Positions 503 through 41,303 of a DNA stretch of 41,303 nucleotides are shown piece by piece (positions within the stretch are counted from its first letter, which is position 1; each line of letters opens with the position of its first letter). Where the stretch lies: the NCBI GenBank assembly GCA_021813125.1, contig JAKALT010000009.1, positions 1 to 41,303 of the forward strand, written 5' to 3'. The position numbers and the translations under genes were made by a program. Below the pieces are notes generated by a model. The model was not told the DNA's origin. It did no database searches and saw nothing but the letters and a program-made list of their open reading frames with translations. The DNA is from a bacterium (GTDB lineage Bacteria > Patescibacteriota > Microgenomatia > Curtissbacterales > GWA2-41-24).

Positions 503-1081
503 GTGACCATAAACTCAAAACTCAAAACTCAAAACTCAAAACCTTGGAATTTGGAATTTGGCCATTGGAGTTTAAACGCAGGTTTTACTCTAATCGAACT
601 TCTAGTTGTTATCTCTATAATCGGTATCCTTGCCGCCTTCATAGTCGCCTCCTTTACGTCTGCTCAGCAAAAAGCCCGCGATTCCAGAAGAAAAGCAGAT
701 CTTGATGCCGTCAAAAAGGCACTGAGTCTAGTCAGTAACGATTGCAGAGGGGGCGGCTATCCAGTTATGGCAGGATTAAACGGAAATCAATATTACGTTA
801 ACCTTGGAACTTATCTCCAAGGACTAAACTATATTAAAAATACCCCTCAGGATCCAACGCAAGCTATACCCAACACTTACTATTACATTCCCAACGGCAC
901 AATAACCCCTACTGCTTGCCCAAGCTCTACAGACAGTAGACCATTCTTCTACATAAGGGCAACCCTTGAAAACCTCAATGACCCAGCAGCCGACACCGCT
1001 CTGATCCAAGGAACATCCGGTAAAGCATGTGGAATCTCAGCTTCCCTTGTGGCTGGATATTATTACGTTTGCAACCCATAA
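503..1081 (+). CDS. Type IV prepilin-like protein (major/minor pilin)
   Basis: N-terminal GFTLIELLVVISIIGILAAFIVASFTSAQ prepilin motif; GTG start at 503 uncertain; leader built from 7-bp tandem repeats. Confidence 0.85.
   Translation: MTINSKLKTQNSKPWNLEFGHWSLNAGFTLIELLVVISIIGILAAFIVASFTSAQQKARDSRRKADLDAVKKALSLVSNDCRGGGYPVMAGLNGNQYYVNLGTYLQGLNYIKNTPQDPTQAIPNTYYYIPNGTITPTACPSSTDSRPFFYIRATLENLNDPAADTALIQGTSGKACGISASLVAGYYYVCNP
511..573 (+). repeat. Heptanucleotide tandem arrays in pilin leader
   Basis: (AAACTCA)x4 then GGAATTT GGAATTT GGCCATT GGAGTTT, both period 7. Confidence 0.85.
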
Positions 1082-1134
1082 TAGTTGCTCTACTTTGACA
1101 TTAACAATAATTAAGGCTAAAATACGCAGTTAAA

Positions 1135-2085
1135 ATGAGTGCTGAAAATAAGCCAAATATATACATTGACTCGGCTGACCATGAAAACCCCAGCGCTAGA
1201 AGGCCCTCCAATTTCAAAAGACTCAAATTTATAGGCGCAACACTCGCTGCAATGCTGGCAGCTGAGCTAGGAGTAGTTGCAGTTGCGAAAAATAGTGCTC
1301 CAGTGAATGCTGAGGTAAGCCCGCAGGCAATGACAGATTTATTAAACACCAAAGGAGATTTCGAATCTAGTACATGCCCCCAAGCAGCTCCTCCAAGCTG
1401 GAATCAAATAATAAACGACCCAAGCTTCCCGCCAATTTACCACTGCGCAGGTGATCCTCCGCCCTTAGTTAACTTCAGTGGAAACAGCGCAGTCGAAGTT
1501 GACTATACTGCAAACGGAGTCGCATATACTACCAACGGAGAGAAATATACGAGCAGCTTCGCAGTTACCCCAGATCAAACAATTACAGAAGCATTTGCTG
1601 CGGCTTACGAGATAAATGAAGCAGGCGTAACTGTCAAACCTCAGACAAAAATTACCTGGAAAGACGGGGGCGGAAATGTCACAGGAACCAACATCTTTAG
1701 TCCAGCACACACAAGAGGTCCCGACACATGGGAGCAGTTTTCAAAAACTTATGGCCCTAGTGGAACGCTTATCCCGCCAAACACCGTTTCCGGAATAATT
1801 GAAGTAGGTATAGCCGGTTCCGGCGGAACACTAACAACAGGTATTAAAGGATTAGAATATATTGACATACTACAGGTTTGGGGGCCTACCCCACCCACTC
1901 CCACCCCAACCCGAGCAATTTCAGTTGGTGGAGTCGCTTCCCAACCAGACATTGATAGCCTACCGCAAACTACTGTCACCCACTCAACTCGAAACACAAT
2001 TGTTGAAATCGCTGGGGGTGTCACAGCGTTAGCGGGAACCATCGCAGTCGCAGAAGCCTTCAGGCGAAGAAACCGCCAAAGTTAG
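1135..2085 (+). CDS. Putative exported surface protein with sortase-like C-terminal signal (LPQTT-TM-RRRNRQS)
   Basis: N-terminal hydrophobic segment (LKFIGATLAAMLAAELGVVAVA); C-terminal LPQTT, hydrophobic stretch and positively charged tail; lies between two pilin genes. Confidence 0.65.
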   Translation: MSAENKPNIYIDSADHENPSARRPSNFKRLKFIGATLAAMLAAELGVVAVAKNSAPVNAEVSPQAMTDLLNTKGDFESSTCPQAAPPSWNQIINDPSFPPIYHCAGDPPPLVNFSGNSAVEVDYTANGVAYTTNGEKYTSSFAVTPDQTITEAFAAAYEINEAGVTVKPQTKITWKDGGGNVTGTNIFSPAHTRGPDTWEQFSKTYGPSGTLIPPNTVSGIIEVGIAGSGGTLTTGIKGLEYIDILQVWGPTPPTPTPTRAISVGGVASQPDIDSLPQTTVTHSTRNTIVEIAGGVTALAGTIAVAEAFRRRNRQS

Positions 2086-2140
2086 CCCCGTTGTTTCGAC
2101 CTCTTGACAACAATTAACCTTTGGTAATACGCTTAAATTA

Positions 2141-2623
2141 ATGCGTCCTGTCCAACAAGTTAAGAAACGTGGTTTTACGCTCATCGAGCTTCTAGTAGTC
2201 ATCTCTATTATTGGTATCCTCGCCGCCTTCATAGTTGCATCCTTTACCAGTGCTCAAGCTAAAGGCCGAGATTCCAGGAGAAAAGCAGACATTGATGCAA
2301 TCAAAAAAGCGCTGGAACTAGCAAAGAATGATTCTACTAGTGCAGCATACTATCCCGGCTGTGCAGCAGCCTCCCCTTGCGATCTCAACGGAGGTGCATC
2401 AACGAATCCCAACATAGTTACTAACGGATACATTAAGGCGATTCCTACAGATCCAAGCGGTACAACCACTTACTACAGATATACTGCCGCAGTAGGCGCG
2501 AACATAGCAACCACCTACACACTCAAAGCATGCCTTGAAAACGCTAACGATCCACAAGGAACCACACCAGGAACAGCACCTTGCACCGCTACACAAGCAA
2601 ACTACACAGTTTCTAACCCATGA
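2141..2623 (+). CDS. Type IV prepilin-like protein
   Basis: MRPVQQVKKRGFTLIELLVVISIIGILAAF prepilin leader and N-terminal helix. Confidence 0.9.
   Translation: MRPVQQVKKRGFTLIELLVVISIIGILAAFIVASFTSAQAKGRDSRRKADIDAIKKALELAKNDSTSAAYYPGCAAASPCDLNGGASTNPNIVTNGYIKAIPTDPSGTTTYYRYTAAVGANIATTYTLKACLENANDPQGTTPGTAPCTATQANYTVSNP
2161..2247 (+). repeat. 87-bp exact direct repeat, copy 1 (pilin N-terminal module)
   Basis: TAAGAAACGTGGTTTTACGCTC...GCATCCTTTAC, identical to 2625-2711. Confidence 0.9.
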
Positions 2624-3120
2624 CTAAGAAACGTGGTTTTACGCTCATCGAGCTTCTAGTAGTCATCTCTATTATTGGTATCCTCGCCGCCTTCATAGTT
2701 GCATCCTTTACATCTGCTCAGCAGAAAGCAAGGGATTCCCGAAGAAAAGCAGATCTTGACGCCATCAAAAAATCCCTTGAACTTTCTAAATCAGACACGA
2801 TAGGTGCAAAATATTACATTGCGGGTGGTGGCGCATTTAGCGGCTGCCCGGGATACGCATTATGCGCCTTAGCGCCATCATATATAAAGACATTACCAGA
2901 CGACCCGCAAGCACCCACCTACCACTATAATTACCAGGCAGCTGACCCCACACTCGGCATGGCATGCGCAGGCTTAACTTGCACAACTTACAGATTGTAC
3001 GCGAGATTGGAAAATGCTAACGACCCGCAAATTACCAGTTCGCAAACTCAATGCCCCGGCAATACGGATGGGGAAAGCATAGTATACCCTGCCCAAACTT
3101 ACGTCGTTTGCCAGCAGTAG
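2620..3120 (+). CDS. Type IV prepilin-like protein
   Basis: MTKKRGFTLIELLVVISIIGILAAF; ATGA overlap with the preceding pilin stop. Confidence 0.9.
   Translation: MTKKRGFTLIELLVVISIIGILAAFIVASFTSAQQKARDSRRKADLDAIKKSLELSKSDTIGAKYYIAGGGAFSGCPGYALCALAPSYIKTLPDDPQAPTYHYNYQAADPTLGMACAGLTCTTYRLYARLENANDPQITSSQTQCPGNTDGESIVYPAQTYVVCQQ
2625..2711 (+). repeat. 87-bp exact direct repeat, copy 2 (pilin N-terminal module)
   Basis: Identical to 2161-2247; sequences diverge immediately after. Confidence 0.9.
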
Positions 3121-3168
3121 GCAAAAATCCCTTGCTCTAATTTCCAAAATCATTTATTGTATTTATAA

Positions 3169-3723
3169 ATGGCCGAAGAAAACCTTGTTGCTAACCCGCA
3201 AATAGCCACAACCCAACCGACTACTCAACCTGTTGTAACTACTAACCCAAAATCAGTGCCAACTTCAAATTTTCCGAAAGGGAACAAGGGCGGTTTAGTT
3301 AAAAAAATCGTCGCTCTTGTAATTCTTTTGGCAGTAATTGCAGGAGTTCTTTACTTTGGTCGGGTTTATTGGCAAACATGGCAGCTAAAACAGCGTGATT
3401 CTAAAAGGAAAACAGATATCCAAGCTTTGCAGGAAGACCTTGAAACATTTAAAGGAAAAACAAAAGACAAAAAATACTATCCGGGAGCATTGACAAGTGA
3501 TGCGATGGTCAAAACGGGTATAATAGCCAAAATTCCCCAAGACCCTATAAACAAACAGCCTTTCATCTACATTTACCAAAGCTTACCCGCAACCTGCCTA
3601 GGGGATTGCACACAATACGCGTTATACGCTTGCCTGGAAAATAAAAACGATAAGCAGGGAATCGACCCAGTCTACCCCTGCACAATAAAATCTTACAAAG
3701 TTACAAGCCCGCAAGGATCTTAA
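3169..3723 (+). CDS. Pilin-like membrane protein lacking a prepilin signal
   Basis: P/T-rich N-terminus, one TM helix (KKIVALVILLAVIAGVLYFG), then RDSKRKTDIQALQEDLE...KYYPG...ALYACLENKNDKQG resembling the adjacent pilins' RDSRRKADLDAIKKSLE...CLENANDPQ. Confidence 0.7.
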   Translation: MAEENLVANPQIATTQPTTQPVVTTNPKSVPTSNFPKGNKGGLVKKIVALVILLAVIAGVLYFGRVYWQTWQLKQRDSKRKTDIQALQEDLETFKGKTKDKKYYPGALTSDAMVKTGIIAKIPQDPINKQPFIYIYQSLPATCLGDCTQYALYACLENKNDKQGIDPVYPCTIKSYKVTSPQGS

Positions 3724-4298
3724 ATAGCCCGGTACAAAACTATCGCGAGGCTCACCATTACGTTTAAACTGATGTTTACTCCATACATTGGAATTTCAAC
3801 AATTTGATCCGCTAGCGCAAGCGCTTCCTTCGAAACCCCATCCGTCTCATGGCCAACCACAAAAACCACCGGCTGGCTGTAATCTGCCTTGCGGAAATCA
3901 ATACTTCCCTCACCCTGTTCAATAGCAATTACCTTCAGTTTCGAGTATTGAGTATTGAGTTTTGAGATTGCCTCCGCCGCAGTTTCGCAGTATTCCCATG
4001 GCACCCATTTATCCGTGCCTACACTAGCCTTGGCTATCCGGCTGTTGGGCGGAGTCTCACTTCCACCACACAAATACACTTTTGAGGCCGCTACAGCCTC
4101 TGCAAGGCGAAATATCGAGCCGATGTTGTATGTGTCCAGTACGTTGTCACAGACGATATAAATGCCCCGCCTTTTTATCTTTTTTATCTCCGATTTCTTG
4201 GGCTTACTGGCCCTAAGCTGTTTTGCATCTAGCTTAAAGCTAGATTTTGGATTTTGGATTTCAGATTTTTGATTCTTCTCATCATTCATATCTATCAT
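3720..4298 (-). CDS. TrmH/SpoU-family RNA 2'-O-methyltransferase
   Basis: IYIVCDNVLDTYNIGSIFRLAEA...GHETDGVSKEAL...IPMYGVNISLNVMVSLAIVLY SPOUT motifs. Confidence 0.88.
   Translation of the reverse strand: MIDMNDEKNQKSEIQNPKSSFKLDAKQLRASKPKKSEIKKIKRRGIYIVCDNVLDTYNIGSIFRLAEAVAASKVYLCGGSETPPNSRIAKASVGTDKWVPWEYCETAAEAISKLNTQYSKLKVIAIEQGEGSIDFRKADYSQPVVFVVGHETDGVSKEALALADQIVEIPMYGVNISLNVMVSLAIVLYRAI
3941..3967 (-). repeat. Heptanucleotide tandem array inside trmH-like ORF
   Basis: Minus strand CTCAAAA CTCAATA CTCAATA CTCGAAA; encodes KLNTQYSKLK. Confidence 0.75.
4242..4277 (-). repeat. Heptanucleotide tandem array near start of trmH-like ORF
   Basis: Minus strand TCAAAAA TCTGAAA TCCAAAA TCCAAAA; encodes NQKSEIQNPKS; abuts a perfect 9-bp inverted repeat ATCTAGCTT-A-AAGCTAGAT (4227-4245). 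Confidence 0.75.
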
Positions 4299-4319
4299 CT
4301 AAAGTCTATAATCCAGAAT

Positions 4320-6098
4320 CTATTTGACCGTAACACTTTTAGCGAGATTTCTTGGTTTATCAGGATCAAGACCTCGTAAAATTGTCAGATAATACGCTAG
4401 AGCCTGACCGGTAATAATATTCGGGATAATTGTAGCTTCTCTAGCATCAACTACAGGTAGGTAATAATCAAAGATGTCGTGATTTTTGTAAGAAACGCCT
4501 ATAATCATCCCTCCTCGCGCTTTCATTTCCATTGCACTTGCTAAATTAGCACTATAAAGCTCATCGTTAGGGATAAAAACAATACATGGCGTACCTTTTT
4601 CAACTAGTGCAAGGGGTCCATGTTTAAGTTCTCCTGCTGCCATACCCTCCGCATGAATGTAGGAAATTTCCTTTAACTTCATGGCAGTTTCCAGACTAGC
4701 TGGATAAGATAAACCTCGCCCTACTATATAGATATGCCTGGTATTCTTAAGTCTTTTGGCAAGTAATTTTATTCTTGTAATATTTTTTGACTCAAGAACC
4801 ATCTCAGAAGATTTTGCGGCTTCCATCAATAGCGCTTTTCCTTCTTTTGACTTCCCTGAAAAAGCATAGCTCAGAGCTATTAGATGTGCTAATTTCCCTG
4901 TTACCGCCTTAGTTGAAGCAACAGATTTTTCTGGTCCTGCTCCTATGAGTATTTTATAGTCAGCTTCGCGGTACAGTGTTGATCCAAGAACGTTAACAAT
5001 GGCAATAATTTTCGCTCCTTGGATTTTGGCTTCTTTTATTGGCTCCAACGTATCCATGGTTTCACCCGATTGTGAAAGCGCAATAACAAGGTCATTCTTT
5101 GTCAGAAACTTAAGCTGATGCCAAAATTCACTGCCGATTGCCCAATTTATTGGATATTTGGCAATTTGCGAAAATAAATAGCTCCCGGCAAGAGAGACAT
5201 ATGAAGCACTTCCGCACCCCATTAAATAGACGTTGCGGAACTTTTTGATGACTTTCGCAAGTTTTTCCGCTTGCGAAAGAGTACTTGCGATATCCCTTAC
5301 AATTTTAGGTTGTTCGTTGATTTCTTTCAACATAAAATAGCGGTATTTGCCTTTTTCGGTTTGAGCTATTGACCAAGATAATTTGTGTTTAATTGGCTGA
5401 ATGGGCTTCCCGTTTTTCGCATGAAGTATTGACACTGTATTGTCTCGAATAATCGCCATTTGACCATCTTCAAGAAAATGCACTATTTTTGTATGAGGAA
5501 CGAGGGCTGCGGCATCACTAGCCACAAAGTTTTCTTTTTTAGAAAAACCGATTATGAGTGGCGAACCATTGCGAGCAACAACTAATTCGTGATCGTTTAC
5601 CCGAAAAACAATAATTGCGTTCAGGCCATCCATTTTGTTGAATGTGCGTCTAACAGCCTCGTGGAAGGTCATTGTCTTTGCATACTCCTCGACAAGATGA
5701 ACCGCAACTTCGGTATCGGTTTCCGACGTGAATGTATGTCCTTTTTTAAGTAACTCTTTTTTTATGCTCTCGTAGTTTTCAAATATTCCGTTATGAACAA
5801 GGGCGATGGTACCAGTACAGTCCAAGTGTGGATGGGCATTACTTTCGGTAGCTCCACCATGAGTTGCCCAACGTGTATGTCCAAGAGCAAGTGTTCCTTG
5901 TGGCAAATCATCAATGGATGACCTCCCAATCTTACCAGCTTTTTTCTTAACAACAATACGCCCATTACCATTATTATTTTCTGGTACTACAGCGACACCC
6001 CAACTATCGTAACCACGGTATTCAAGATCTTTCAGTCCTTCAAAAACAATTTCGAGAGCATCGCTACGTTTTCCTGCATATCCAAATATTCCGCACAT
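4320..6098 (-). CDS. glmS: Glutamine--fructose-6-phosphate aminotransferase (isomerizing)
   Basis: MCGIFGYAG N-terminal nucleophile Cys, two SIS domains, C-terminal DPDKPRNLAKSVTVK. Confidence 0.97.
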   Translation of the reverse strand: MCGIFGYAGKRSDALEIVFEGLKDLEYRGYDSWGVAVVPENNNGNGRIVVKKKAGKIGRSSIDDLPQGTLALGHTRWATHGGATESNAHPHLDCTGTIALVHNGIFENYESIKKELLKKGHTFTSETDTEVAVHLVEEYAKTMTFHEAVRRTFNKMDGLNAIIVFRVNDHELVVARNGSPLIIGFSKKENFVASDAAALVPHTKIVHFLEDGQMAIIRDNTVSILHAKNGKPIQPIKHKLSWSIAQTEKGKYRYFMLKEINEQPKIVRDIASTLSQAEKLAKVIKKFRNVYLMGCGSASYVSLAGSYLFSQIAKYPINWAIGSEFWHQLKFLTKNDLVIALSQSGETMDTLEPIKEAKIQGAKIIAIVNVLGSTLYREADYKILIGAGPEKSVASTKAVTGKLAHLIALSYAFSGKSKEGKALLMEAAKSSEMVLESKNITRIKLLAKRLKNTRHIYIVGRGLSYPASLETAMKLKEISYIHAEGMAAGELKHGPLALVEKGTPCIVFIPNDELYSANLASAMEMKARGGMIIGVSYKNHDIFDYYLPVVDAREATIIPNIITGQALAYYLTILRGLDPDKPRNLAKSVTVK

Positions 6099-6109
6099 AG
6101 GTGGGTAAT

Positions 6110-6136
6110 TTTATACCTATCTAGCAATTGTATCAA
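6110..6136 (-). promoter_or_regulatory. Possible glmS promoter
   Basis: Minus strand TTGATA-15 nt-TATAAA, with ATG 11 nt after the -10 hexamer (possible leaderless or very short 5' UTR). Confidence 0.35.
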
Positions 6137-6155
6137 GAAAATAAGCAGGTTTGAG

Positions 6156-7181
6156 CTACTTTAGCCTCTTTTTTAGCTCCTCGACCATCACAACCGGAGT
6201 TGGGTCTTCCCCGTTTTTCTCGGCTAAATAATAGGCTGCAAAATCAGCTAAATAAACTGAATTAAATAACTTTTCAAAAACAGTCGAGCCCTCGATGTCA
6301 ATAACAACCGATCCCATATTGTAAGTTTTCAAAATATCGGCTGTAATTGCATATCGCCTGAGGTTTCGAGGATCATCCGCCGGGTCTTTAAGCATAATTG
6401 CAAAATAATTTTCCCCATGATGCGTCATCCCCACCATCAAATTATGGTTCAGCTCCGAAAAAAAGTTGAAAAATGCCGGATTTTTGGCATGCTCATTGAA
6501 TTTAATTGTCCAAACCCGTGCCAATTCTTTATACATTTGGTTTGCCCAAACAAGCGGAGTCTTGCCCGAAATCATATCGGCCAAATCCTTCCCCTTTGAT
6601 TCATATTCATCCATCTTAGAAGAAAAACCTTCCGCACTTTTTATAATTTCATCGGAAAAATCAACAGAAAGCCCCGCGTTTGAAAGGACCTTAAGCATCG
6701 CCCCCACAAAATAGCCGAATCCCATTCGTGGCTGAAATGTCGGAGTCGGCATTGGTAATCTAACAAACGGCACATTTTTTGATTTGCAGATCTCCTCTAT
6801 TTGACCACCGGCAGCAATTCCAACTGTAGGCAGTTTTTTTTCAATCAGTTGATTTAAAACAGAAATCGCCTCTTCCGTATTACCGGAATAAGAACAAACA
6901 ACGTTAAGCGCCTTATCTAAACTATCAGGCGTAATGTTGTAGGTGTAATTCTGCATGAATCTTATCGGAAGCTGACCCGAAGCATATCTTTTATCGGCAA
7001 TTAGAACCCGCACAAATGAAGCCGGAAAAGCCGACCCGCCTTCCCCAAAAAAGACTAGGCGCTCAAAACTGCCATCGACTTTTGCATCTTTGGCAACGTC
7101 AAAACCAACCGCAAACTGCTTCGGCGCATCTAAAATCGCCTGTCTTAAGTTTGATTTATCGAATTGGTGAGGTTTTGTCAT
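6156..7181 (-). CDS. SIS-domain bifunctional phosphoglucose/phosphomannose isomerase-like protein
   Basis: GEGGSAFPASFVR, VCSYSGNTEEAISVLNQL, FNEHAKNPAFFNFFSELNHN motifs of PGI/PMI family. Confidence 0.85.
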   Translation of the reverse strand: MTKPHQFDKSNLRQAILDAPKQFAVGFDVAKDAKVDGSFERLVFFGEGGSAFPASFVRVLIADKRYASGQLPIRFMQNYTYNITPDSLDKALNVVCSYSGNTEEAISVLNQLIEKKLPTVGIAAGGQIEEICKSKNVPFVRLPMPTPTFQPRMGFGYFVGAMLKVLSNAGLSVDFSDEIIKSAEGFSSKMDEYESKGKDLADMISGKTPLVWANQMYKELARVWTIKFNEHAKNPAFFNFFSELNHNLMVGMTHHGENYFAIMLKDPADDPRNLRRYAITADILKTYNMGSVVIDIEGSTVFEKLFNSVYLADFAAYYLAEKNGEDPTPVVMVEELKKRLK

Positions 7182-15634: not shown

Positions 15635-15733
15635 ACGAATATCGAATTTTCTAAACAATTTTCAAAGGTCTAATTTTCAAATGTTTCAAACATTAAAACC
15701 TATTTCGGATTTCGAACTTAGAATTTCGAATTT
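15635..15733 (-). repeat. Heptanucleotide-period array spanning 3' end of the alkyltransferase ORF and intergenic region
   Basis: Minus strand AAATTCG AAATTCT AAGTTCG AAATCCG AAATAGG ... further degenerate units; supplies the stop codon of the upstream ORF. Confidence 0.7.
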
Positions 15734-16053
15734 ACTTTCCAAATGCATTTGGAAAGGTCTACGTGCATTTCATCAACAAATTTAACCCCTTCCGCCTCTA
15801 ACCTTCTCCTCTGCTCCTTTGCAGCATCAAACGCAAAATTAGGAGCCAGCCTTCCATTTCGATCCACCACCCGATGACATGGAACATCCGCTCTATCGTT
15901 TAAGTGAAGCATCCAGCCGACTTCCCTTGCTCCTTTTGGCTTACCTAAAAGAAACGCAATTTGCCCGTAAGTGGAAACTTTCCCGACAGGAATTTTTTTT
16001 ATCAGGCTATAAACCTCTTGCTTAAAATTGGGATTTGATTTTGTTTTTGACAT
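15718..16053 (-). CDS. MGMT/ATL-family DNA alkyltransferase-domain protein
   Basis: VGKVSTYGQIAFLLGKPKGAREVGWMLHLN...VPCHRVVDRNGRL; internal Met at 16053 more likely than 16086. Confidence 0.9.
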   Translation of the reverse strand: MSKTKSNPNFKQEVYSLIKKIPVGKVSTYGQIAFLLGKPKGAREVGWMLHLNDRADVPCHRVVDRNGRLAPNFAFDAAKEQRRRLEAEGVKFVDEMHVDLSKCIWKVNSKF

Positions 16054-16690
16054 TATTTCCGTGCTTTTTACCCTCAAAAACTGCAAGTTCGACCAAAAGT
16101 TTCAGCCTTGAACGGAAATAAATTACCATCCCTACTGCAAACGCAAACCAAAACACTAAAGTACCCCGCCCAAGCCACTCTTCAATAAGCTGTTTGTTTC
16201 CACCAAGCAAATAACCGCCAATAATCCAAAGGCTCGTCCAAATCAAAGCTGAACAAAAAGAAGCAATAGCAAATTTCCAGTAGGAAAATTTAACAATTCC
16301 CGATGCCAATGCCACCCAAGCCCTGCTCCAGGCGGAAAACCTACCGGCAAAAACGGCCCAAATACCGTGTTTTTTAACAAACGGCTCAACAAGCTTTATC
16401 GGCCTTTTGAAAAGCGGTTTTTGAGCCAATATGTTTCCTGCTTTCCTCCCTAAAAAATAATCAAAGTTGTCACCCAAAAAAGAACCGGCTGCAGCTAGAA
16501 TCACAATAAAAAGAATGCTTTCATTGTGGGTTCTTGCAACATAGCCTGAAAAAAATATTAATGTAACTCCCGGAAAAATAAAGCCTAAAATCACAGAATT
16601 TTCCAAAAACGCCCCAAGCGGGATAATCACGATCCCGTATTTGGAAATCAAAAACTCAACAAAATTTATAAGATCTACAACAGAAGGCAT
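16022..16690 (-). CDS. DedA/SNARE-associated family membrane protein
   Basis: GAFLENSVILGFIFPGVTLIFFSGYVA...GSFLGDNFDYFLGRKAG...GRFSAWSRAWVALASGI. Confidence 0.93.
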   Translation of the reverse strand: MPSVVDLINFVEFLISKYGIVIIPLGAFLENSVILGFIFPGVTLIFFSGYVARTHNESILFIVILAAAGSFLGDNFDYFLGRKAGNILAQKPLFKRPIKLVEPFVKKHGIWAVFAGRFSAWSRAWVALASGIVKFSYWKFAIASFCSALIWTSLWIIGGYLLGGNKQLIEEWLGRGTLVFWFAFAVGMVIYFRSRLKLLVELAVFEGKKHGNNVKNKIKSQF

Positions 16691-28346: not shown

Positions 28347-29462
28347 TCAGAGAGAAATTTTTGTCGCAGATTTTAGCAACTTTCTCGGCACGGACTCTTC
28401 CTCTGCCGCCGTAATTATCGTTTGCTGATTGGAAATCACCGAAAGAACCGTGTCCCGATGTTCCCAATCAAGTTCACTAAAAATATCATCCAATGCCAAA
28501 ACCGGTCTTTCACCGCGTTTGACCTTAAGGTATTCAAGCTCAGCCAATTTTAAAGCTAAAACAGCCATCCTCTGTTCTCCCCGCGAACCGAAAAATTCCA
28601 AATCGCGGCCTTTAAATTTAAACCGAAAATCATCCCTGTGCGGCCCGGAAAGGGTTATACCTGCCGCAATGTCCCGCTCCCTGTTGCCGGCAAGTTTCTC
28701 CTCGGTAAGCAAACTTTGCTTCAACTCCCAAGAATACACGTTATCCCCTGCTTTAAGGTCAGGCCTTAATCTGGGTTTCTTCCTTTGCAAAGGCCTGACC
28801 TTTACTTCACCCAAAAGACGACCTTCGCCCAAACTTACAAAGTTCAAATACCCAAAAAACTCCTCCCTAACTTTGCTGATATATTTCCCATGCGCCAAAA
28901 GCCTCTCGTCCCAAAACCCAAGCTCCAGAGGCTTCGATTTACCTTCCGCAATCCGCAAAAGTATCTTGTTTCTTCTTGTCACAATCTTGCCATATGCCGA
29001 AACGCTCCTCCAATACCTGCTATCCAAAGATGAAAGAAACCTGTCCAAATGCCTTCGACGTAGGGATGGTGATCCAAAAACCAAGTCTAAATCACTGGGT
29101 TCAAAAATCACGATCGAAAATATTTCCACAAAATCAACCAGCCTTTTTTTAAAAGTGTCTATATAAAAAGATTTGCCCACTCGACCAGCCTCTGTAATTT
29201 GGAAATTGACGATTAATCCCTTTTTCTCGGAATCTGAAGCTACGACACCTTCAACTTTGGCCGAACCCTGTCCAAAACGCACTAAATCCATGTCGGTTTC
29301 CGCTTTTGTTGGTCGAATCCCCGAAAGCATTCCTACTGCCTCCAAAACATTACTCTTTCCTGCTCCGTTTGGACCGACAATAACAGTCAGTTTTGGGTCA
29401 AAAACAATTTTTTTGACAGGAAAATTGCGGTAGTTGGTTAAATTTAAACTCAAAATTTCCAT
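28347..29462 (-). CDS. recF: DNA replication and repair protein RecF
   Basis: LNLTNYRNF, VGPNGAGKSNVLEAV, GPHRDDFRF, GEQRMAVLALKLAE, LALDDIFSELDWEHR. Confidence 0.95.
   Translation of the reverse strand: MEILSLNLTNYRNFPVKKIVFDPKLTVIVGPNGAGKSNVLEAVGMLSGIRPTKAETDMDLVRFGQGSAKVEGVVASDSEKKGLIVNFQITEAGRVGKSFYIDTFKKRLVDFVEIFSIVIFEPSDLDLVFGSPSLRRRHLDRFLSSLDSRYWRSVSAYGKIVTRRNKILLRIAEGKSKPLELGFWDERLLAHGKYISKVREEFFGYLNFVSLGEGRLLGEVKVRPLQRKKPRLRPDLKAGDNVYSWELKQSLLTEEKLAGNRERDIAAGITLSGPHRDDFRFKFKGRDLEFFGSRGEQRMAVLALKLAELEYLKVKRGERPVLALDDIFSELDWEHRDTVLSVISNQQTIITAAEEESVPRKLLKSATKISL
28755..28802. repeat. 48-bp palindromic element inside recF (13-bp arms, 22-nt loop)
   Basis: AAGGTCAGGCCTT-22-AAGGCCTGACCTT, perfect arms; exactly 16 codons in recF. 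Confidence 0.88.
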
Positions 29463-31580: not shown

Positions 31581-31581
31581 A

Positions 31582-33607: not shown

Positions 33608-34855
33608 TCAAGCTTTTTTAACCTTACTCTCCACAAATTTCTTAATCTCCGCCTTAAACCGCTCTTTGCTGAATTTTTGGGCGTGTTTTTTGATAAATGC
33701 CGGGTCGAAATAGCCTTTTTTCTCAAGATCCATAAAATTGTTGATTGCCAAAGTTAAAGAGCCGCTAGTTGCCGGGTCGAAATAAACACCCGTCGATTTT
33801 CCCTTACCCCCCACAGACCAGTCGATAACAGACTCCAATACTCCACCCTCTGCCAATGCAATTACCGGTTTGCCTGCAGCCATCGCTTCAACCGGCACGA
33901 TCCCGAAATCCTCCTGTGACGCTGGGAAAATCAAGGCGCGGCAGTTTTGGTAAAGCCCGACAAGCTTATCATCATCGACGTCCCCAACAAACTCAACCGT
34001 TTCACCGGCCATACTCTCAAGCTTTCCTCTCTCCCTTCCTGTCCCAACCACCTTAAGATTAAGCTTTAAATTTGAACAAACCTCAACTGCCAAATCCACG
34101 TTTTTAGCTCCGACAAGTCGGGAAACGACCAAAAAGTAGCCAGTTTCCAGTTTCCCGCGACCAGTTTTCTTTACCTGGTCTCTGGTCTCTGGTCTCTGGA
34201 AACTACTAACCTCAACCGGCGGATAAATTACGGTCGAATCTCTTCTATAGAATTTCTTAATGCGGGATTGAACCTCGCACGAATTGGCAATAAACCAATC
34301 AACTCTTTGTGCCGCTTCAAAGTCGTAAACCCGCATAAAATGGTTAACAATTGCCGCATAAACTTTAACTAAAGGATGCTTTTGGGAATGGGCTGTCGGG
34401 TATCCGTACAAATACCTCGGCGGTGTATGGCAATAACATATCTCAAGCGGCTTGGCTAAGGCCAGACCTTGGCCACGGTATTTGCTTCGCGAAAGGTCTG
34501 GCCTTCTGCCTGACCCGCCAAATCCTTTCGTCACGTACCAACTGCTGGATGAAATAACCACATCAAACTTGGAAAAATCTCGTCCAGAGGACGATCCGCC
34601 TTTGGCGGAAAAACTATTCCAAATCAAAGGCGCCAGAAACCTTAAGGGGCTGTGTAGTTTCGAGGCAAAAAACGGCACATTTTGCGCCCACGAAGTGACA
34701 ATTTTTTTCTTCTTAAACCGCTCGTAGGCAGTTGAACCCTCACGATAAAAGGCAGTATAAATCGGCGCATCTGGCCATATTTCCGAAAGAGCCAAAAGGA
34801 CTCTTTCGGCCCCGCCAAACTCGTTTAGATAATCGTGTACTAAGGCGACTTTCAT
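33608..34855 (-). CDS. GT4-family glycosyltransferase (group 1) with repeat-derived insertions
   Basis: MKVALVHDYLNEFGGAERVLLALSEIWP; ICYCHTPPRYLYGY; YFLVVSRLVGAKNVDLAVE; FPASQEDFGIVPVEAMAAGKPVIALAEGG. Confidence 0.94.
   Translation of the reverse strand: MKVALVHDYLNEFGGAERVLLALSEIWPDAPIYTAFYREGSTAYERFKKKKIVTSWAQNVPFFASKLHSPLRFLAPLIWNSFSAKGGSSSGRDFSKFDVVISSSSWYVTKGFGGSGRRPDLSRSKYRGQGLALAKPLEICYCHTPPRYLYGYPTAHSQKHPLVKVYAAIVNHFMRVYDFEAAQRVDWFIANSCEVQSRIKKFYRRDSTVIYPPVEVSSFQRPETRDQVKKTGRGKLETGYFLVVSRLVGAKNVDLAVEVCSNLKLNLKVVGTGRERGKLESMAGETVEFVGDVDDDKLVGLYQNCRALIFPASQEDFGIVPVEAMAAGKPVIALAEGGVLESVIDWSVGGKGKSTGVYFDPATSGSLTLAINNFMDLEKKGYFDPAFIKKHAQKFSKERFKAEIKKFVESKVKKA
34142..34204 (-). repeat. 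Heptanucleotide array (about 9 units, 63 bp) inside GT4 ORF
   Basis: Minus strand TTTCCAG AGACCAG AGACCAG AGACCAG GTAAAGA AAACTGG TCGCGGG AAACTGG AAACTGG. Confidence 0.85.
34458..34505. repeat. 48-bp palindromic element inside GT4 ORF (13-bp arms, 22-nt loop)
   Basis: AAGGCCAGACCTT-22-AAGGTCTGGCCTT, perfect arms; same architecture as the recF element. Confidence 0.88.
34581..34609. repeat. Double hairpin inside GT4 ORF
   Basis: CGTCC-AGA-GGACG and TCCGCC-TTT-GGCGGA back-to-back. Confidence 0.65.
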
Positions 34856-35490
34856 AGTTCTACCTCACGTAGTGATGAAAAAACCTTATCTGCGCCTGAC
34901 TCCTCAAGATGCCTTCTTGTGACCTTGTCACGATTTACACCATAAGCAAGCATACCTGCTGCTTTGGCTGATACTATTCCGTTTGGTGCGTCCTCAAAAA
35001 CTAAACAATATTTTGGTTCAACCTCTATCTTTTTTGCTGCAGCTAGAAAAATATCAGGCGCAGGTTTAAGCTTTTCAATTTCCTCCCCTGTTACAAATGC
35101 AGAGATAAAATCAGAAATTCCAAGTTCCGCTATTATCCTTTTAATCCTATCCTTATGGGGACCACTGGTTGCTATTGCAAGTTTTATTCTTTTCTTGGTA
35201 AGAGATCTGACTAAATCTAAAACACCCGCCATTGGCGGAATTTTTTGATCCAACAGCCGAAAGAACCGATTCTCCCTCTCACTCGCCAATTCTTCCACAC
35301 TTTCTTTAAAACCAAATTCTTCTTTATAAATTTCGACCGTCCTTTTGTTTCCAGTTCCTAATCTCTTTCTAAATAATGCTTCTGTCGGTTTAAAATCTCG
35401 TTGTCCAATCATTTCACGGTCTACCTGCGACCACAACGGTTCCGAATCCATAAGAAGTCCATCTAAATCAAAAATTACAGCTTTAATCAT
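34852..35490 (-). CDS. HAD-superfamily hydrolase (beta-phosphoglucomutase-like)
   Basis: AVIFDLDGLLMDSEPLW...AIATSGPHKDRIKRI...KPAPDIFLAAAKK...VFEDAPNGIVSAKAAGM. Confidence 0.93.
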   Translation of the reverse strand: MIKAVIFDLDGLLMDSEPLWSQVDREMIGQRDFKPTEALFRKRLGTGNKRTVEIYKEEFGFKESVEELASERENRFFRLLDQKIPPMAGVLDLVRSLTKKRIKLAIATSGPHKDRIKRIIAELGISDFISAFVTGEEIEKLKPAPDIFLAAAKKIEVEPKYCLVFEDAPNGIVSAKAAGMLAYGVNRDKVTRRHLEESGADKVFSSLREVEL

Positions 35491-36137
35491 GAACTAAGGC
35501 GAATTTCATAGTTTACCTTGGCCAAACTAGAGTAGACTTTCTCTGCTCCTGCCTCAATTAAATCACTTCTCCAACCCGAATCCTGGTTAACTCCCCAAAC
35601 GGTAATATTCGCTCCTAACGCAGATTTCACCCCATTTACCGAATCCTCAAAAGCCAGACAAGAATCTGCATCAAGATTCAATTTATTAAGCGTCTCCAAA
35701 TAAACATCCGGCGCAGGTTTTCCTTTTGCAACATTGTCCGAAGAAACAATCACCGAAAAATAATCCAAAACATTTTCTCCCGCCAGCATCTCCTTTAGCT
35801 TTTGCTCGGTATGACCTCCGGAATTAAGGGAAATTACCAAACTTTTTTCTCTAGCTTTTTTCAGAACCTCCATAGCACCCGGCATCAGCAAATCCTGGCT
35901 TCCTTTGAGGGTTTCATAAAATATCTCCCTATATTCGCTAAGTAGGTCGCTAGTTTTACCAGCCAAACCTTTACTTTGTAAAATCTCGATAAATTCACGA
36001 AGGCCAATGCCGGTTGTGTCACCAACCTCCACATCCGAAAAATTCTTGAGCTTCAAAAACTTTGAATGTGTTTTACCCCACACGGGTTCCGTATTAAAAA
36101 GCAGCCCGTCAAAATCGAAAATTACAGCCTTAACCAT
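35487..36137 (-). CDS. HAD-superfamily hydrolase (beta-phosphoglucomutase-like)
   Basis: AVIFDFDGLLFNTEPVW...SLNSGGHTEQKL...GKPAPDVYLETLNKL...AFEDSVNGVKSA. Confidence 0.92.
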   Translation of the reverse strand: MVKAVIFDFDGLLFNTEPVWGKTHSKFLKLKNFSDVEVGDTTGIGLREFIEILQSKGLAGKTSDLLSEYREIFYETLKGSQDLLMPGAMEVLKKAREKSLVISLNSGGHTEQKLKEMLAGENVLDYFSVIVSSDNVAKGKPAPDVYLETLNKLNLDADSCLAFEDSVNGVKSALGANITVWGVNQDSGWRSDLIEAGAEKVYSSLAKVNYEIRLSS

Positions 36138-36804
36138 GGATCAGTTTCCCTAAAACCTCATCAGTCAGCTCGTGCATACCTTTCAAAATTAAATCGGCCT
36201 GCTCGTGGTAAGTACTGCCAAACCGCTCGTCGGGAATATAAATTGCCTTCATCCCTGCAGCTTTCGCAGCCTCAATACCGTGAGGAGCATCCTCTAGGGC
36301 AACACAATTTTTAGGTATTACTCCCAATTTTTCAGCAGTTATCAAATATACCTCTGGATGAGGCTTACCGTCACTAATCATAAGATCTTCAGGTGAAACG
36401 ATAACAGAAAAGTAATCCGCCAAGGCGAATCGGTCTAACGCTTGGGTAATATAGGACCTTCTCCTTCCACTCGCTATTGCACGCTTTATAGACATACGAT
36501 CTAATCTCTTAAGAAGTTCACGTGCCCCCTTTAAAAGAACTAGCTCGCTAGCAAACAAATCCCCAAATATTTGCATACGCTCCTCGTGCAATTGCTCTAA
36601 ATCGTCGGCAAGTTGATACTTATCCTTTAAGAAACTAGTCGTATTCATTGGACTTACCGAACGAGTCGTCAAAATGTAGTCTTCACTGCGAAACTTCTTG
36701 CCATGTTTTTTAAGCAACCGATGAAAGGAGCGCAATCTTAGTTCTTCAGTATTAACCAATAATCCGTCGAAATCGAAAATTACGGCTTTAATTTTGGGAT
36801 TCAT
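36130..36804 (-). CDS. HAD-superfamily hydrolase (beta-phosphoglucomutase-like)
   Basis: AVIFDFDGLLVNTEELRLRSF...AIASGRRRSYI...GKPHPEVYLITAEKL...ALEDAPHGIEAAKAAGM. Confidence 0.92.
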   Translation of the reverse strand: MNPKIKAVIFDFDGLLVNTEELRLRSFHRLLKKHGKKFRSEDYILTTRSVSPMNTTSFLKDKYQLADDLEQLHEERMQIFGDLFASELVLLKGARELLKRLDRMSIKRAIASGRRRSYITQALDRFALADYFSVIVSPEDLMISDGKPHPEVYLITAEKLGVIPKNCVALEDAPHGIEAAKAAGMKAIYIPDERFGSTYHEQADLILKGMHELTDEVLGKLIHG

Positions 36805-37727
36805 TAGATTAGCTCAAGTTGATCATTATTTTTCTTATCAGATTTTGACCCCGACTCTGGTCTCTGGCTACTGGTAACTGGCAACTTATTCACTATCGAT
36901 TTAAAACCCAGTTCTTCAAAAACGGCTCTAACGCGATCCCAATCCGGTCCAAATTTCAAATCATCAATCTTAAATTTTATATCAACATCCGTATCCAACT
37001 TCACAAGCTTTTTGGCAGCCAGTGCCACGTCCCTATCCTTTTCCAATTTCAGTCTTGTTGTCTCCCCAATCTCGCCAATATGGCTATAAATCCGTTCAAG
37101 TGTCTTATATTTTTGAAGCAGTGCCGATGCCGTCTTCGGCCCGATACCGGCAATCCCCGGGACGTTATCGGAAGGGTCTCCGGTCATGGATTTATAATCC
37201 ACCATTTGGTCCGGGGTTATTCCGAATTTTTCGCTAACTTCTTTTGCTCCATATAATGTAGTAGAAGATAAATTCCATCCGGGCGCCTGGACTTTTATAA
37301 CCCCATCAACAAGCTGCAATAAATCCCTGTCACCGGAAAGAATAGTTACTTTACTAACCTTACTAAGAAGACCCATTGCCAAAGTCGCAAGTAAATCATC
37401 CGCCTCATACCCTGCTTTTTCAAAATAAGGAATGCCGAATGCTTCAAGTACACTCTTTACTTTAGGTAATTGCGGATAAAGGTCTGGTGGTGGCGCAACC
37501 CTCTGTGCTTTGTATGCTTCAAATTCCACATGCCTAAAAGTAGGTGCCTTGGTATCAAAAGCGCAGGCAATATAGTCCGGCTTTACCTCACCTACAGCCT
37601 TTAAAATCATGTTGGAAAACCCAAAAACCGCGTTGGCATTTTCGCCACTTGAATCCGTCAAAGACGGCAAGGCGTGATACGCACGGTGAAACAGATTGTT
37701 ACCGTCAATTAAAAGAAGAGTTGACAT
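36804..37727 (-). CDS. Stand-alone 5'-3' exonuclease (PolA N-terminal domain-like)
   Basis: LLLIDGNNLFHRAYHALP; AGYEADDLLATLA; ILSGDRDLLQLV; MTGDPSDNVPGIAGIGPKTASALLQKY; C-terminal QLELI. Confidence 0.92.
   Translation of the reverse strand: MSTLLLIDGNNLFHRAYHALPSLTDSSGENANAVFGFSNMILKAVGEVKPDYIACAFDTKAPTFRHVEFEAYKAQRVAPPPDLYPQLPKVKSVLEAFGIPYFEKAGYEADDLLATLAMGLLSKVSKVTILSGDRDLLQLVDGVIKVQAPGWNLSSTTLYGAKEVSEKFGITPDQMVDYKSMTGDPSDNVPGIAGIGPKTASALLQKYKTLERIYSHIGEIGETTRLKLEKDRDVALAAKKLVKLDTDVDIKFKIDDLKFGPDWDRVRAVFEELGFKSIVNKLPVTSSQRPESGSKSDKKNNDQLELI
36851..36884 (-). repeat. Heptanucleotide array near 3' end of exonuclease ORF
   Basis: Minus strand GTTGCCA GTTACCA GTAGCCA GAGACCA GAGTCGG; encodes LPVTSSQRPESG. 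Confidence 0.75.
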
Positions 37728-37745
37728 GAAGAAATTGTACCAAAA

Positions 37746-38135
37746 CTAGCTTAAAGGCTTAATCCACAAGTTAATAACCGTCGTCCTCAAAGCGCCACCT
37801 GATAATCTTCCAACTGTTTCCCAAAAATCACTGTCAGATATTGTTCTAATAGGCATTGCCTGGCCTATTAGGTCCTCTCGAGCTTTATCATCTGAAGTCA
37901 CTTCCCTTAGGCAAGTCCTAGTAAACTCTTCCGCAACATCATTTGGAAGCACAGTTCTCACAAGTAGCAAATTATGTATGTCCGGAGCCCCACTAACACG
38001 CGCGCCTTCAATTTCTAGCAAATCTATACTTGTCACAAGAGGAACCTCAGAAGAAACTTTCTCCACAAAAGACCGCATTAGTGGCCTTCTCATCTCGGCT
38101 ACTAGATCTAAACCAGACCTTAAAGCTTCTGACAT
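37746..38135 (-). CDS. Hypothetical protein
   Basis: 129-aa ORF; no family recognised. Confidence 0.6.
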   Translation of the reverse strand: MSEALRSGLDLVAEMRRPLMRSFVEKVSSEVPLVTSIDLLEIEGARVSGAPDIHNLLLVRTVLPNDVAEEFTRTCLREVTSDDKAREDLIGQAMPIRTISDSDFWETVGRLSGGALRTTVINLWIKPLS

Positions 38136-38153
38136 GAGGCTATTCTAGCACAA

Positions 38154-38588
38154 TCAGTTTAAACCGCTGTTTAAAATCGTACCAGGCATGTAAGTTGATA
38201 AACACTCCTGAGGACCTTTTTCAAGAAGTACCGTTACTTGTTCACAAACAAATCCAAGGCCTGTCTTATGGCTCATAAAGTCTGCTACCCCAAAAACCTC
38301 CACATACCCTAACTGTTTTTCCTGATATCTGCTGGCACAAGTTCCAGCAACAGCCCACCCAACTTTTCGCTTCAAACAATCAACGTCAGAAGGATCATTA
38401 CTATAAGAAAGTACATAAAACTTTGGAATATTCTCACCTTCAGTTGGATGAATGTTCATGGAAGCAACTACCCCCTCAAAATCAACCTCCCGCATCTCTT
38501 CCAAAAACCTAATAGCAATAAACCTTCTTCCCGTATCATACGGAATCAACCTAGTAAGTTCAGACAAATGCGGTTGCTGCCTCTCCAT
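38154..38588 (-). CDS. Hypothetical protein
   Basis: 144-aa ORF; no family recognised. Confidence 0.6.
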   Translation of the reverse strand: MERQQPHLSELTRLIPYDTGRRFIAIRFLEEMREVDFEGVVASMNIHPTEGENIPKFYVLSYSNDPSDVDCLKRKVGWAVAGTCASRYQEKQLGYVEVFGVADFMSHKTGLGFVCEQVTVLLEKGPQECLSTYMPGTILNSGLN

Positions 38589-38607
38589 AAATTTTGATTA
38601 ACCTTTC

Positions 38608-40632
38608 TTACGAAGATTGGACAGGTTTTGAAGATTTAATATTCGCTCCGATCTTGGCTGCAGTGCCTTTAAACTTAATTTCGTCACTTGTTGCGGGCTT
38701 TCCAACAATCTTTTCGAAGTCGTCACGCTCCAGTGTTTCTCTTTTCATCAGTGCTTCGGCAACATGGTCTAGTTTTGTGCGGTTTTTGACTATTACTTCT
38801 TTTGCCTTCCTGAAGCCTTCATCGATTATTTTTGATACTTCCTTATCTATTTTTGCAGCCAACTCAGGAGAAACCTGTTGCTGCTCGGCACCTAACCCGG
38901 GCCAAACACCAAACTGTGGCCTTGGTGAAAATATTGTCGGCCCCAAATCACTCATACCAAACTCCGTCACCATTTCGCGGGCAATACTGGATGCAATCTC
39001 AAGATCCGAAGCTGCCCCCGTTGTATATTCACCGGAAACCAATTCTTCGGCAACTCGTCCACCCATTAAGGTCGCGATTCGCTCCAAAAGCCTCGTTTTT
39101 GTTTCCGTATACCTATCTATTGAGGGCGGAACCAAAGTATGGCCACCGGTCATTCCCCGGGCAACTATTGATATCCTGTGAACCGGATCAACATGCGGCA
39201 GAAAATGGGCAACAATGGCATGACCACCTTCGTGATACGCAGTCAGTCTCTTTTCGTCCTGCGATTGCAACCTGCGTCTCTGGGGTCCAAGCTTAACTTT
39301 TGTAGCCGCCTCTTCCATATCAACATTATTGATTTCTTTCCTGGAGGTTCGGGCAGCCAAAATTGCCGCCTCGTTTAGCATGTTTGCCAAATCGGCACCA
39401 CTATAACCAACTGTTCGATTAGCAATTCGTCCAATGTCAACACTTTTTTCAAACGGCTTACCCTTCATGTGAATCTGAATTATCGCCTTTCTGCCTTCTA
39501 TGTCCGGCAGATCCAAAGCCACTCGCCTGTCAAACCTACCCGGGCGGGTCAAAGCCGGATCCAGAAGGTCCGGCCTGTTGGTTGCTGCCATAACCATTAC
39601 CGATTCGTTAGGTGCAAAACCATCCATTTCCACAAGAATCTGATTCAAAGTCTGTTCCCTTTCATCATGTCCACCGGAAAAACCCATGCCGCGCATTCTT
39701 CCTATCGATTCAATTTCGTCTATAAATATAATAGCCGGGGCACCTTTTTTGGCCTGGACAAATAAATCACGCACTCTTGCGGCTCCAACTCCAACCAGCA
39801 TTTCCATAAATTCCGATCCTGCCACCGAGAAAAACGGTACTCCGGCCTCTCCGGCGACCGCCCGAGCTAGAAGAGTCTTACCGGTTCCCGCCGGCCCCAC
39901 CAGTAGCACACCTTTTGGAGTCCTTGCCCCAATTGCCCTGTATTTTTCCGGATGTTTCAAAAAGTCTACTACCTCCTGCAGTTCCTGTTTAGCTTCATCA
40001 ACCCCGGCAACATCCGCAAATGTTACCTTTGGCATGTCGCTTGAAAACTGCTTGGCCCGTGACTGCCCGAACGAAAAAACTGAAGATGCTCCCTCCCTTG
40101 CCTGTCTGAATATAAGGAAAAAGAAAATAATAATTATCCCGAGCGGCAAGAACGTAGTCAAAATGGTAATCCAAGCCTGGGAAAGTGTTGTGTCCTTGAC
40201 CTCTATTCCCACTTTGCTTGGGTCGATCTGTGCCGCCTGAAGCGCCGCAAAAAATGATTGGTTATCTTCTTTTCTGGAAGAATAGGTCCCATTATCAGAA
40301 AGCGTAACATTAAGTTTATTCCCGTCTATCTCAATATTTTTGACTTTACTGTCCTTTATATCCGAAATGACGGTTGAAATCGGCTTTACTTCCGTAAATT
40401 TGTTTGAAGGGTTGGCGGTTAACGCAAAAAAGGCAAAAACAACAATCCCTAAAACTGCGTAAATTAAAAAACCTCTCCATGAAGAAGACTTACGCATTTT
40501 AATTATCTTCATTTTGGGAATTGCCGGCTTTTTTAAACCGCCTTTATTTCCGGAAGAGTTCTCTTCTGTTTTTAATTTTTCGTCTCCGTTTTTTGCCATA
40601 ACAAAGGCCAATTTTAACACTCCAAAGGTCAA
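38608..40632 (-). CDS. ftsH: ATP-dependent zinc metalloprotease FtsH
   Basis: TFADVAGVDEAKQELQEVVDFLKHPEKY; GPAGTGKTLLARAVAGEAGVPFFSVAGSEF; HEGGHAIVAHFLP; two N-terminal TM segments. Confidence 0.97.
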   Translation of the reverse strand: MTFGVLKLAFVMAKNGDEKLKTEENSSGNKGGLKKPAIPKMKIIKMRKSSSWRGFLIYAVLGIVVFAFFALTANPSNKFTEVKPISTVISDIKDSKVKNIEIDGNKLNVTLSDNGTYSSRKEDNQSFFAALQAAQIDPSKVGIEVKDTTLSQAWITILTTFLPLGIIIIFFFLIFRQAREGASSVFSFGQSRAKQFSSDMPKVTFADVAGVDEAKQELQEVVDFLKHPEKYRAIGARTPKGVLLVGPAGTGKTLLARAVAGEAGVPFFSVAGSEFMEMLVGVGAARVRDLFVQAKKGAPAIIFIDEIESIGRMRGMGFSGGHDEREQTLNQILVEMDGFAPNESVMVMAATNRPDLLDPALTRPGRFDRRVALDLPDIEGRKAIIQIHMKGKPFEKSVDIGRIANRTVGYSGADLANMLNEAAILAARTSRKEINNVDMEEAATKVKLGPQRRRLQSQDEKRLTAYHEGGHAIVAHFLPHVDPVHRISIVARGMTGGHTLVPPSIDRYTETKTRLLERIATLMGGRVAEELVSGEYTTGAASDLEIASSIAREMVTEFGMSDLGPTIFSPRPQFGVWPGLGAEQQQVSPELAAKIDKEVSKIIDEGFRKAKEVIVKNRTKLDHVAEALMKRETLERDDFEKIVGKPATSDEIKFKGTAAKIGANIKSSKPVQSS

Positions 40633-40654
40633 ATTGCCAGCAATCTAAAGGAAA

Positions 40655-41303
40655 TTAAAAGTAATCGATCTTCATAGCCCGTTTAACTTCAGCCAAAGTT
40701 TTTTGTGCCTCTTCCCTAGCCCTTTTAGTTCCTTCCTGCAGAATTTTTTCGACAATTCCATCCTGTTTTTCAAATTCCTCTCTTCTTTTTCTAATTGGTT
40801 CCAAGAATTCCTCCAAAACATCAACCAGAAATTCCTTCACCTCAACATCCTTAACTTTACCCTGTTTATAGCTTTCTTTAAATTTCGAATTTTGGATTTC
40901 GAATTTTGGATTTCCTGAAGCAAAAACATCCAAGTAAGTAAAAACCGGATTGCCTTCGATTCGGCCCGGTTCATCTCCGTGAACCCGGTTCGGGTCTGTG
41001 TACATTGTCATTACCTGTTTTCTGACAGTTTCCGAATCATCCGCCAGATTAATCACATTCCCAAGGCTTTTGCTCATCTTGGCTTTGCCATCAGTCCCGG
41101 GTAATCTTTCAACTTCTCCGATTAAGGCCTCAGGCTCGATAAGCACCTTGCCGTACAACTCGTTAAACTTACGCACAATTTCCCGTGTCTGCTCAATCAT
41201 TGGTACCTGATCCACTCCAACCGGCACCAGGTCTGCTTTCAAAAACGTAATATCGGCAGCTTGCGAAACGGGATAAGCCAAAAAGCCCAAAGGCACGTTG
41301 GCC
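40655..41303 (-). CDS. trpS: Tryptophanyl-tRNA synthetase, C-terminal part (5' end outside window)
   Basis: PLGFLAYPVSQAADITFLKADLVPVGVDQVPMIEQTREIVRKFN...KMSKSLGNVINL. Confidence 0.95.
   Translation of the reverse strand, partial: ANVPLGFLAYPVSQAADITFLKADLVPVGVDQVPMIEQTREIVRKFNELYGKVLIEPEALIGEVERLPGTDGKAKMSKSLGNVINLADDSETVRKQVMTMYTDPNRVHGDEPGRIEGNPVFTYLDVFASGNPKFEIQNSKFKESYKQGKVKDVEVKEFLVDVLEEFLEPIRKRREEFEKQDGIVEKILQEGTKRAREEAQKTLAEVKRAMKIDYF
40880..40914 (-). repeat. Heptanucleotide array inside trpS
   Basis: Minus strand CCAAAAT TCGAAAT CCAAAAT TCGAAAT; encodes NPKFEIQNSKFK. Confidence 0.78.

Follow-up and report, generated by a model that had tools for sequence, protein, structure and literature searches.

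Short tandem repeats with a seven-nucleotide unit have been described from several groups of bacteria. In the heterocystous cyanobacteria Calothrix and Nostoc they are known as STRR, degenerate and dispersed tandem units whose motif class depends on the lineage, and in the P6b region of the Nostoc trnL intron two heptad classes, TDNGATT and NNTGAGT, have switched repeatedly (PMC4476775). Direct repeats of the heptamer TAACTGA are found in marine Beggiatoaceae, Cyanobacteria and Bacteroidetes, and translational control has been proposed for them in Beggiatoaceae (PMC4679880), while GGGNATC and GGGGAYT heptamers, which form a G-quadruplex motif, occur in Xanthomonas and Nostoc (PMC4692102). As relayed in two of these papers (PMC4679880, PMC4692102), Mrazek et al. 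(2007) reported heptanucleotides to be the most abundant class of long simple repeat in most genomes, and put forward the footprint of the polymerase as an explanation for the unit length of 7.

The period-7 arrays described here, from a small genome (G000, the source genome) that its size and the relatives it groups with mark as CPR type, are of the same general kind as STRR and the long heptanucleotide repeats of cyanobacteria and Beggiatoaceae, to which they are likened by unit length and dispersal. The initial annotation had drawn the cyanobacterial comparison, and it holds with respect to a unit length of 7, dispersal and a preference for non-coding DNA. Like STRR, the arrays consist of degenerate units of lineage-dependent class, and they resemble the Nostoc trnL heptads in switching class at one site and, presumably, in changing length by repeat units. 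Unlike STRR, they comprise many word families in a single small genome, lie in open reading frames (ORFs) in about half of cases, show no tendency to form hairpins, and have a relative, G025, with eight-nucleotide units. With the GGGNATC and GGGGAYT heptads they share a mostly non-coding location and occurrence at the same intergenic places in two species with differing length and sequence, but the words of G000 are not G-rich. The likeness to the TAACTGA repeats lies in unit length, and the (AACTGAT)n arrays of G025 are the same repeat in another register; however, the published system uses a single word, with related heptamers rare, whereas here AACTG is followed by a variable two or three nucleotides and many other cores occur. 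TAACTGA itself is not among the main words of G000 and is one of several AACTG words in G025. A genus-specific hairpin that stands beside some arrays is REP-like, recalling REP/REPIN elements with their RAYT transposases, but the heptad arrays themselves are not hairpins. A literature search, with most subscription journals outside it, returned no report of such arrays in Patescibacteria; as far as checked, their extent in the phylum, the lineage vocabularies at shared sites, the copying of blocks in fixed order and the presence of seven- and eight-nucleotide units on one core are new.

In the window, meaning the whole 41,303-nucleotide stretch of DNA that was analysed, a lag-autocorrelation scan stricter than Tandem Repeats Finder (TRF) detects six lag-7 arrays and only isolated matches at other lags; 200 windows simulated under an order-4 Markov null have 0.14 lag-7 arrays on average and never more than 2. 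At every heptamer locus named by the initial annotation TRF gives period-7 arrays, far above chance. The arrays, in window coordinates, are as follows.

511-542 (feature 504..568), no strand assigned: AAACTCA x4.6 in a pilin leader (TRF, 100%)
544-561, no strand assigned: TTGGAAT x2.6 in the pilin leader, directly after the AAACTCA array (TRF)
3933..3972 (TRF 3943-3970), minus strand: TACTCAA/AACTCAA-type heptad array inside a SpoU/TrmH ORF (3720-4298)
4239..4277 (TRF 4243-4274), minus strand: AAATCCA/AAATCTG-type array, part of the N-terminal extension of the SpoU/TrmH ORF
4290..4323, no strand assigned: degenerate period-14 (2x7) array of ATCTA-type words, spanning the start of the SpoU ORF and the gap to the ORF at 4320-6098 (TRF period 14)
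15702..15733, minus strand: AATTCGA-type array at the 3' end of a 6-O-methylguanine methyltransferase DNA-binding-domain ORF (15718-16086) and in the following gap (TRF)
34140..34155, plus strand: GTTTCCA x2.3 block in a GT4 glycosyltransferase ORF (33608-34855) (TRF)
34169..34206 (TRF 34175-34199), minus strand: GAGACCA x3.6 array with a CCAG core in the GT4 ORF
36857..36886 (TRF 36864-36886), minus strand: CCAG-core array (CCAGTTA CCAGTAG CCAGAGA) in the C-terminal linker of a PolA-type 5'-3' exonuclease ORF (36804-37727)
40874..40919 (TRF 40889-40913), minus strand: alternating AAATCCA/AAATTCG array in a TrpRS-type (tRNA-synt_1b) ORF, encoding ...NPKFEIQNSKFK...

Comparison with the congeneric species G001, whose DNA is 77% identical to that of G000, reveals a range of histories at these loci. 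Read from the GTG at 503, the pilin array would encode a leader peptide ahead of the N-methylation motif, VTINSKLKTQNSKPWNLEFGHWSLNA followed by GFTLIELL, and the PF07963 match in this ORF begins at residue 25. In both species the array sits between an equivalent start codon (GTGACC in G000, ATGACC in G001) and the N-methylation motif, with AAACTCA x4 in G000 and AAATTAC x4 in G001. The methyltransferase array likewise has a counterpart of ATTTAGA units in G001, in identical place and register, while the G001 equivalent of the SpoU/TrmH array at 3933..3972 is partly decayed with its length unchanged. The second SpoU/TrmH array (4239..4277) has no counterpart in the G001 alignment, and G001 is without an array at the place corresponding to that of TrpRS, which TRF also reads as a perfect 14-mer of alternating TTTCGAA and TTTTGGA (40882-40914). 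The GT4 locus had been taken for one array of about 63 bp and some nine units; it proves to be two short blocks in opposite orientation, with a net 36-bp in-frame insertion relative to G001. At 77% identity to G001, the boundaries of insertions in general are not resolvable to 7n. Its GAGACCA array cross-matches CCAG arrays elsewhere in the genome, at C25:6357, C28:34052, C24:63166 and C15:34036 (contig and position in G000). One further TRF row of period 14, at 35738-35765, was rejected as a repeat array; its alignment is ungapped and conserved in G001, and it is therefore ancestral coding sequence. The sole Rfam match in the window is a 16S fragment at its start. The pilin-like ORFs of the window are themselves arranged in tandem (503-3120) with duplicated N-terminal regions, those beginning at 503, 2141 and 2620 sharing 137-bp segments that are about 82-87% identical.

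The enrichment seen in the window extends to the genome, of which 1.017 Mb of 1.044 Mb was scanned. TRF finds 97 period-7 arrays, compared to 1.3 per simulated genome under an order-5 Markov null, and a lag scan of G000 finds 45, 22, 8 and 2 arrays at lags of 7, 14, 21 and 28, compared to 0-3 at each of the other lags and a null of 0, so that a unit length of 7 exceeds its neighbours in both spectra, as in the heptanucleotide class of repeats. The strong excess is limited to 7 and its multiples. Perfect two-copy tandem duplications exceed chance only at 7 and at multiples of 3 (per Mb, 162 vs 72 expected at a length of 7, and 22 vs 21 at 8), with no excess for lengths of 8, 10 and 11. Chance or low complexity as the source of the arrays is ruled out by the Markov nulls and by the other lags. 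The initial annotation was prepared to give up its proposal if no 7-bp excess appeared genome-wide; a clear excess is present, and the period-7 array family in this CPR-type genome is confirmed as real.

The arrays had also been described as lying mostly inside ORFs, which is true of the window and not of the genome. Of 121 arrays placed on simple gene calls, which yield 1105 ORFs and leave 8% of the genome intergenic (92% coding), 61 are intergenic, 4 are partial and 56 lie in ORFs, giving a density per base about 12-fold higher between genes and matching the dispersed, preferentially non-coding habit of the class. Those within ORFs had been read as insertions, a reading borne out by orthologues that lack the array or carry other words at the same loop; judged from such alignments, they are evidently insertions at permissive loops, linkers and termini. 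The exonuclease provides an example. Its linker array precedes a terminal QLELI in G000, and arrays occupy the same position in G001 and in G053, a member of another family whose array uses other words; G013, G007 and G004 carry arrays in a different internal loop, and in G010 and G002 such an array is absent. The terminal QLELI of this stand-alone protein resembles a sliding-clamp-binding peptide.

Positional conservation was assessed for the 48 ORF arrays of G000 whose flanking sequences could be placed on both sides in the complete G001 genome. At 15 of these sites G001 has a period-7 array, compared to 5 of 554 random ORF sites (p=4e-14); intergenic arrays show no such excess in G001 (2/34 vs 11/380). 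The words at the common ORF sites usually differ between the two species: AATTCCA, AACTCCA, AATTCGA or AAATCTA in G000 stands opposite AAAGTCA in G001 at C5:7324, C18:12784, C20:4809, C25:5507 and C28:40618, and the intergenic site C15:74558, with four units in each genome, shows a change to AAAGTCA as well. The contrast of vocabulary extends to the whole of both genomes (label permutation p=2e-4), the AAAAGTC class occupying 1 locus in G000 vs 12 in G001, AAATTCG 6 vs 0 and AACCATG 5 vs 0. At the present divergence, an array at a shared site may be an old one that was rewritten or the product of recurrent gains at places that permit them; for the exonuclease, at least, recurrent gain is the better fit.

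Within G000 the units do differ between loci, as the initial annotation held, but the sharing of words between loci is about 8-fold higher than for words with shuffled letters (0.0142 vs 0.0017), and the notion of a family set by period rather than sequence stands only in part, since words and cores of 4-5 nt are shared within the genome. Recurrent words include GAGACCA, TGAACCA, AATTCCA and AATTCGA, with short cores such as CCAG. Words of G000 are common to genomes of its family (10/28, p=5e-4) and are not shared with distant Patescibacteria (3/33). Array words show no enrichment as singletons outside arrays (O/E ~1.0), which rules out the insertion of single heptamers. In the CCAG family, three CCAG cores at lag 7 are found at 24 loci, compared to none at lags of 5, 6, 8, 9 and 10, and 30 different spacer triplets are used; array families beyond CCAG display many different cores. 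Neighbouring CCAG units are more alike than shuffled units (p=0.02), and the order of units is common to loci, TTn preceding AGA 21:1, with an in-order similarity of 238 vs 184+/-9 after random array reversal. The CCAG family thus spread as multi-unit blocks and was not rebuilt locally each time. Other array families show no significant shared order by random reversal (481 vs 472+/-9), and block copying may therefore not be general. The related arrays at C28:3633 and C28:5703 differ in having 2 and about 5 GCRACTA-type units, respectively, between matching ends.

Across the phylum, CCAGNNN triplet matches are sporadic, in 41 of 287 genomes, and several array-rich genomes favour a spacer of their own (TTA in G116, TAA in G138, CTA in G243). 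A BLAST comparison of one CCAG array with plasmids gave no match, which is probably an effect of low-complexity filtering. A grammar common to phyla was considered and rejected; known heptamers of other bacteria score no better than random against the PWM, except Nostoc P6b class I. A reversed control, GACCNNN x3, gave 33 matches in G299 and 7 in G200, which may mark a further heptad family built on GACC as its core. The phylum-wide CCAG control at lag 8 gave mostly isolated matches, and it was through a lag-8 control that G025 was found, with CCAGTTTT and CCAGTTGA arrays; an octamer array not selected for, GGAGAGCG x3 (L190), is present in the same genome, and G046, of the same family, has TCCAGCTC x4. 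Period-8 arrays on CCAG- or AACTG-type cores were noted in G025 (L178, L182, L186, L190), G046 (L189) and G040 (L179). When the core AACT was searched for in G025 with free gaps of 2-6, 32 of 55 matches were spaced 8/8, 16 were spaced 7/7 and 7 had other combinations, with the 8/8 spacing at 14 loci among the matches listed, whereas in G003 nearly all the matches listed were 7/7. The period-8 and period-7 arrays of G025 share one core, AACTG, followed by 3 or 2 nt. A period of 7 is therefore the rule in G000 but not in this relative, and the idea of a fixed 7-nt step is not supported.

How might such arrays arise and persist? The reading tentatively preferred here is that they are dispersed degenerate heptanucleotide repeats, kept up by slippage and homogenisation, seeded in part by block copying and filtered by selection. 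In upkeep, a nascent strand could re-anneal one unit off through the repeated 4-5-nt core, so that replication slippage and homogenisation would maintain an array by steps of whole units. Seeding of new arrays would rely, at least in part, on short multi-unit blocks copied from other arrays, perhaps by ectopic template switching or conversion via the repeated cores, which would spread a local vocabulary, and selection would then eliminate arrays that break a reading frame or are otherwise not tolerated. The arrays themselves are probably neutral to mildly parasitic. The 7-nt-step slippage of the initial annotation remains plausible as one ingredient of this scheme, but the CCAG unit order also requires block copying between loci, and slippage alone does not explain the dominance of 7. 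Slippage that is purely local, its step fixed by a polymerase footprint of 7 nt, as in the idea of Mrazek et al. (2007), with each array arising independently from its own local sequence, is a possible but unlikely alternative. It accords with the sharpness of the period in the TRF and lag spectra, with a phylogenetically scattered occurrence and with the loss of MutS (MutS_V), which is missing in 28 of 31 Patescibacteria genomes and implies that small-loop repair is weak in the phylum. Yet MutS is missing from array-rich and array-poor genomes alike and is present in G090, which has the most CCAG matches of all; the footprint idea sits poorly with words and a CCAG unit order that are common to loci within a genome, with words that differ between lineages, and with G025, where both spacings on one core weaken the case for a rigid 7-nt footprint. 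A dedicated activity that inserts or rewrites arrays of core plus spacer, a writing system of Patescibacteria that uses heptads and, in one lineage, octads as well, and under which orthologous sites switch vocabulary together, is improbable; if it were true, G025 would be a natural experiment on what sets unit length.

Other readings look to a mobile element, a binding site or a template. A palindrome, AAGGNCAGGCCTT-loop-AAGGCCTGNCCTT, occurs in about 80 copies in each of G000 and G001; its loop is variable and a base of its stem covaries, and a copy lies in the window at 28755-28802. The heptad block and this adjacent REP-like hairpin could together form a composite element moved by a Y1/HUH (RAYT-like) transposase at a CCAG-like core, which we consider quite improbable. 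The hairpin stands 3' of CCAG runs in 12 cases against 1 on the 5' side in G000 (3:0 in G001), of 63 intergenic hairpins 13 have an array no more than 15 bp away, where 3.9 would be expected, and each congener has a single Y1_Tnp (HUH/RAYT-like) gene (G000, C5:25753-26079, minus strand; G001, C3:173058-173384, minus strand), whose product is a candidate mover of the hairpin. However, 46 of 59 CCAG runs have no hairpin, the hairpin foot lacks a fixed tetranucleotide, and the hairpin is restricted to the genus (41 and 33 pattern matches in the two congeners, 2 in G008 and 0 in the other 52 genomes) while arrays are much more widely spread; Y1_Tnp is absent from G138, G239 and G210 and present in several copies in array-poor genomes. 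At C24:51331 a TAAGTGA array that is continuous in G000 holds the hairpin in G001, and the hairpin gives the impression of a distinct element, younger than the arrays, that inserts into them or moves along with them. Palindromic structure of the REP/REPIN kind is a property of this neighbour and not of the arrays, in whose words self-complementary dinucleotides are rare; a hairpin or structured RNA formed by the arrays was rejected, as 120-nt array-centred windows fold no better than random (median -25.1 vs -25.5 kcal/mol). Recognition of the 4-5-nt core at intervals of 7-8 bp by a protein or regulator, or translational control of the kind suggested for TAACTGA (PMC4679880), would suit the conserved core, variable spacers and intergenic preference, but about half of the arrays are inside ORFs, intergenic arrays show just a slight orientation bias (33:20) with respect to co-directional genes, words are replaced wholesale between congeners and the cores are many; such a function is improbable. 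Synthesis on an RNA template by a telomerase-like or defence-type reverse transcriptase, which would be the "templated" mechanism of the initial annotation in its strong form, is very unlikely. A constant short core with a variable remainder resembles template realignment and the words are genome-specific, but no RVT_1 domain was found in G000, G001 or six array-rich genomes (G090, G116, G138, G239, G229, G210), and a reverse transcriptase was accordingly rejected as the determinant. Among the 30-31 genomes compared, none of Y1_Tnp, MutS and a DinB-type polymerase tracks the arrays.

Regardless of how the arrays originate, they bear on how conserved proteins are annotated, as linkers and leaders of proteins such as pilin, GT4, the 5'-3' exonuclease and TrpRS can be repeat insertions. 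Why heptamers should be favoured among long bacterial simple repeats is an old question, and the small genomes considered here give a very clean heptad signal. They also offer contrasts that we have not found described for cyanobacteria: the use of both seven- and eight-nucleotide units within one lineage, array loads that differ greatly between close relatives, and orthologous protein loops that have acquired arrays of different words. These contrasts make a polymerase footprint, selfish spread and a binding site separable by experiment.
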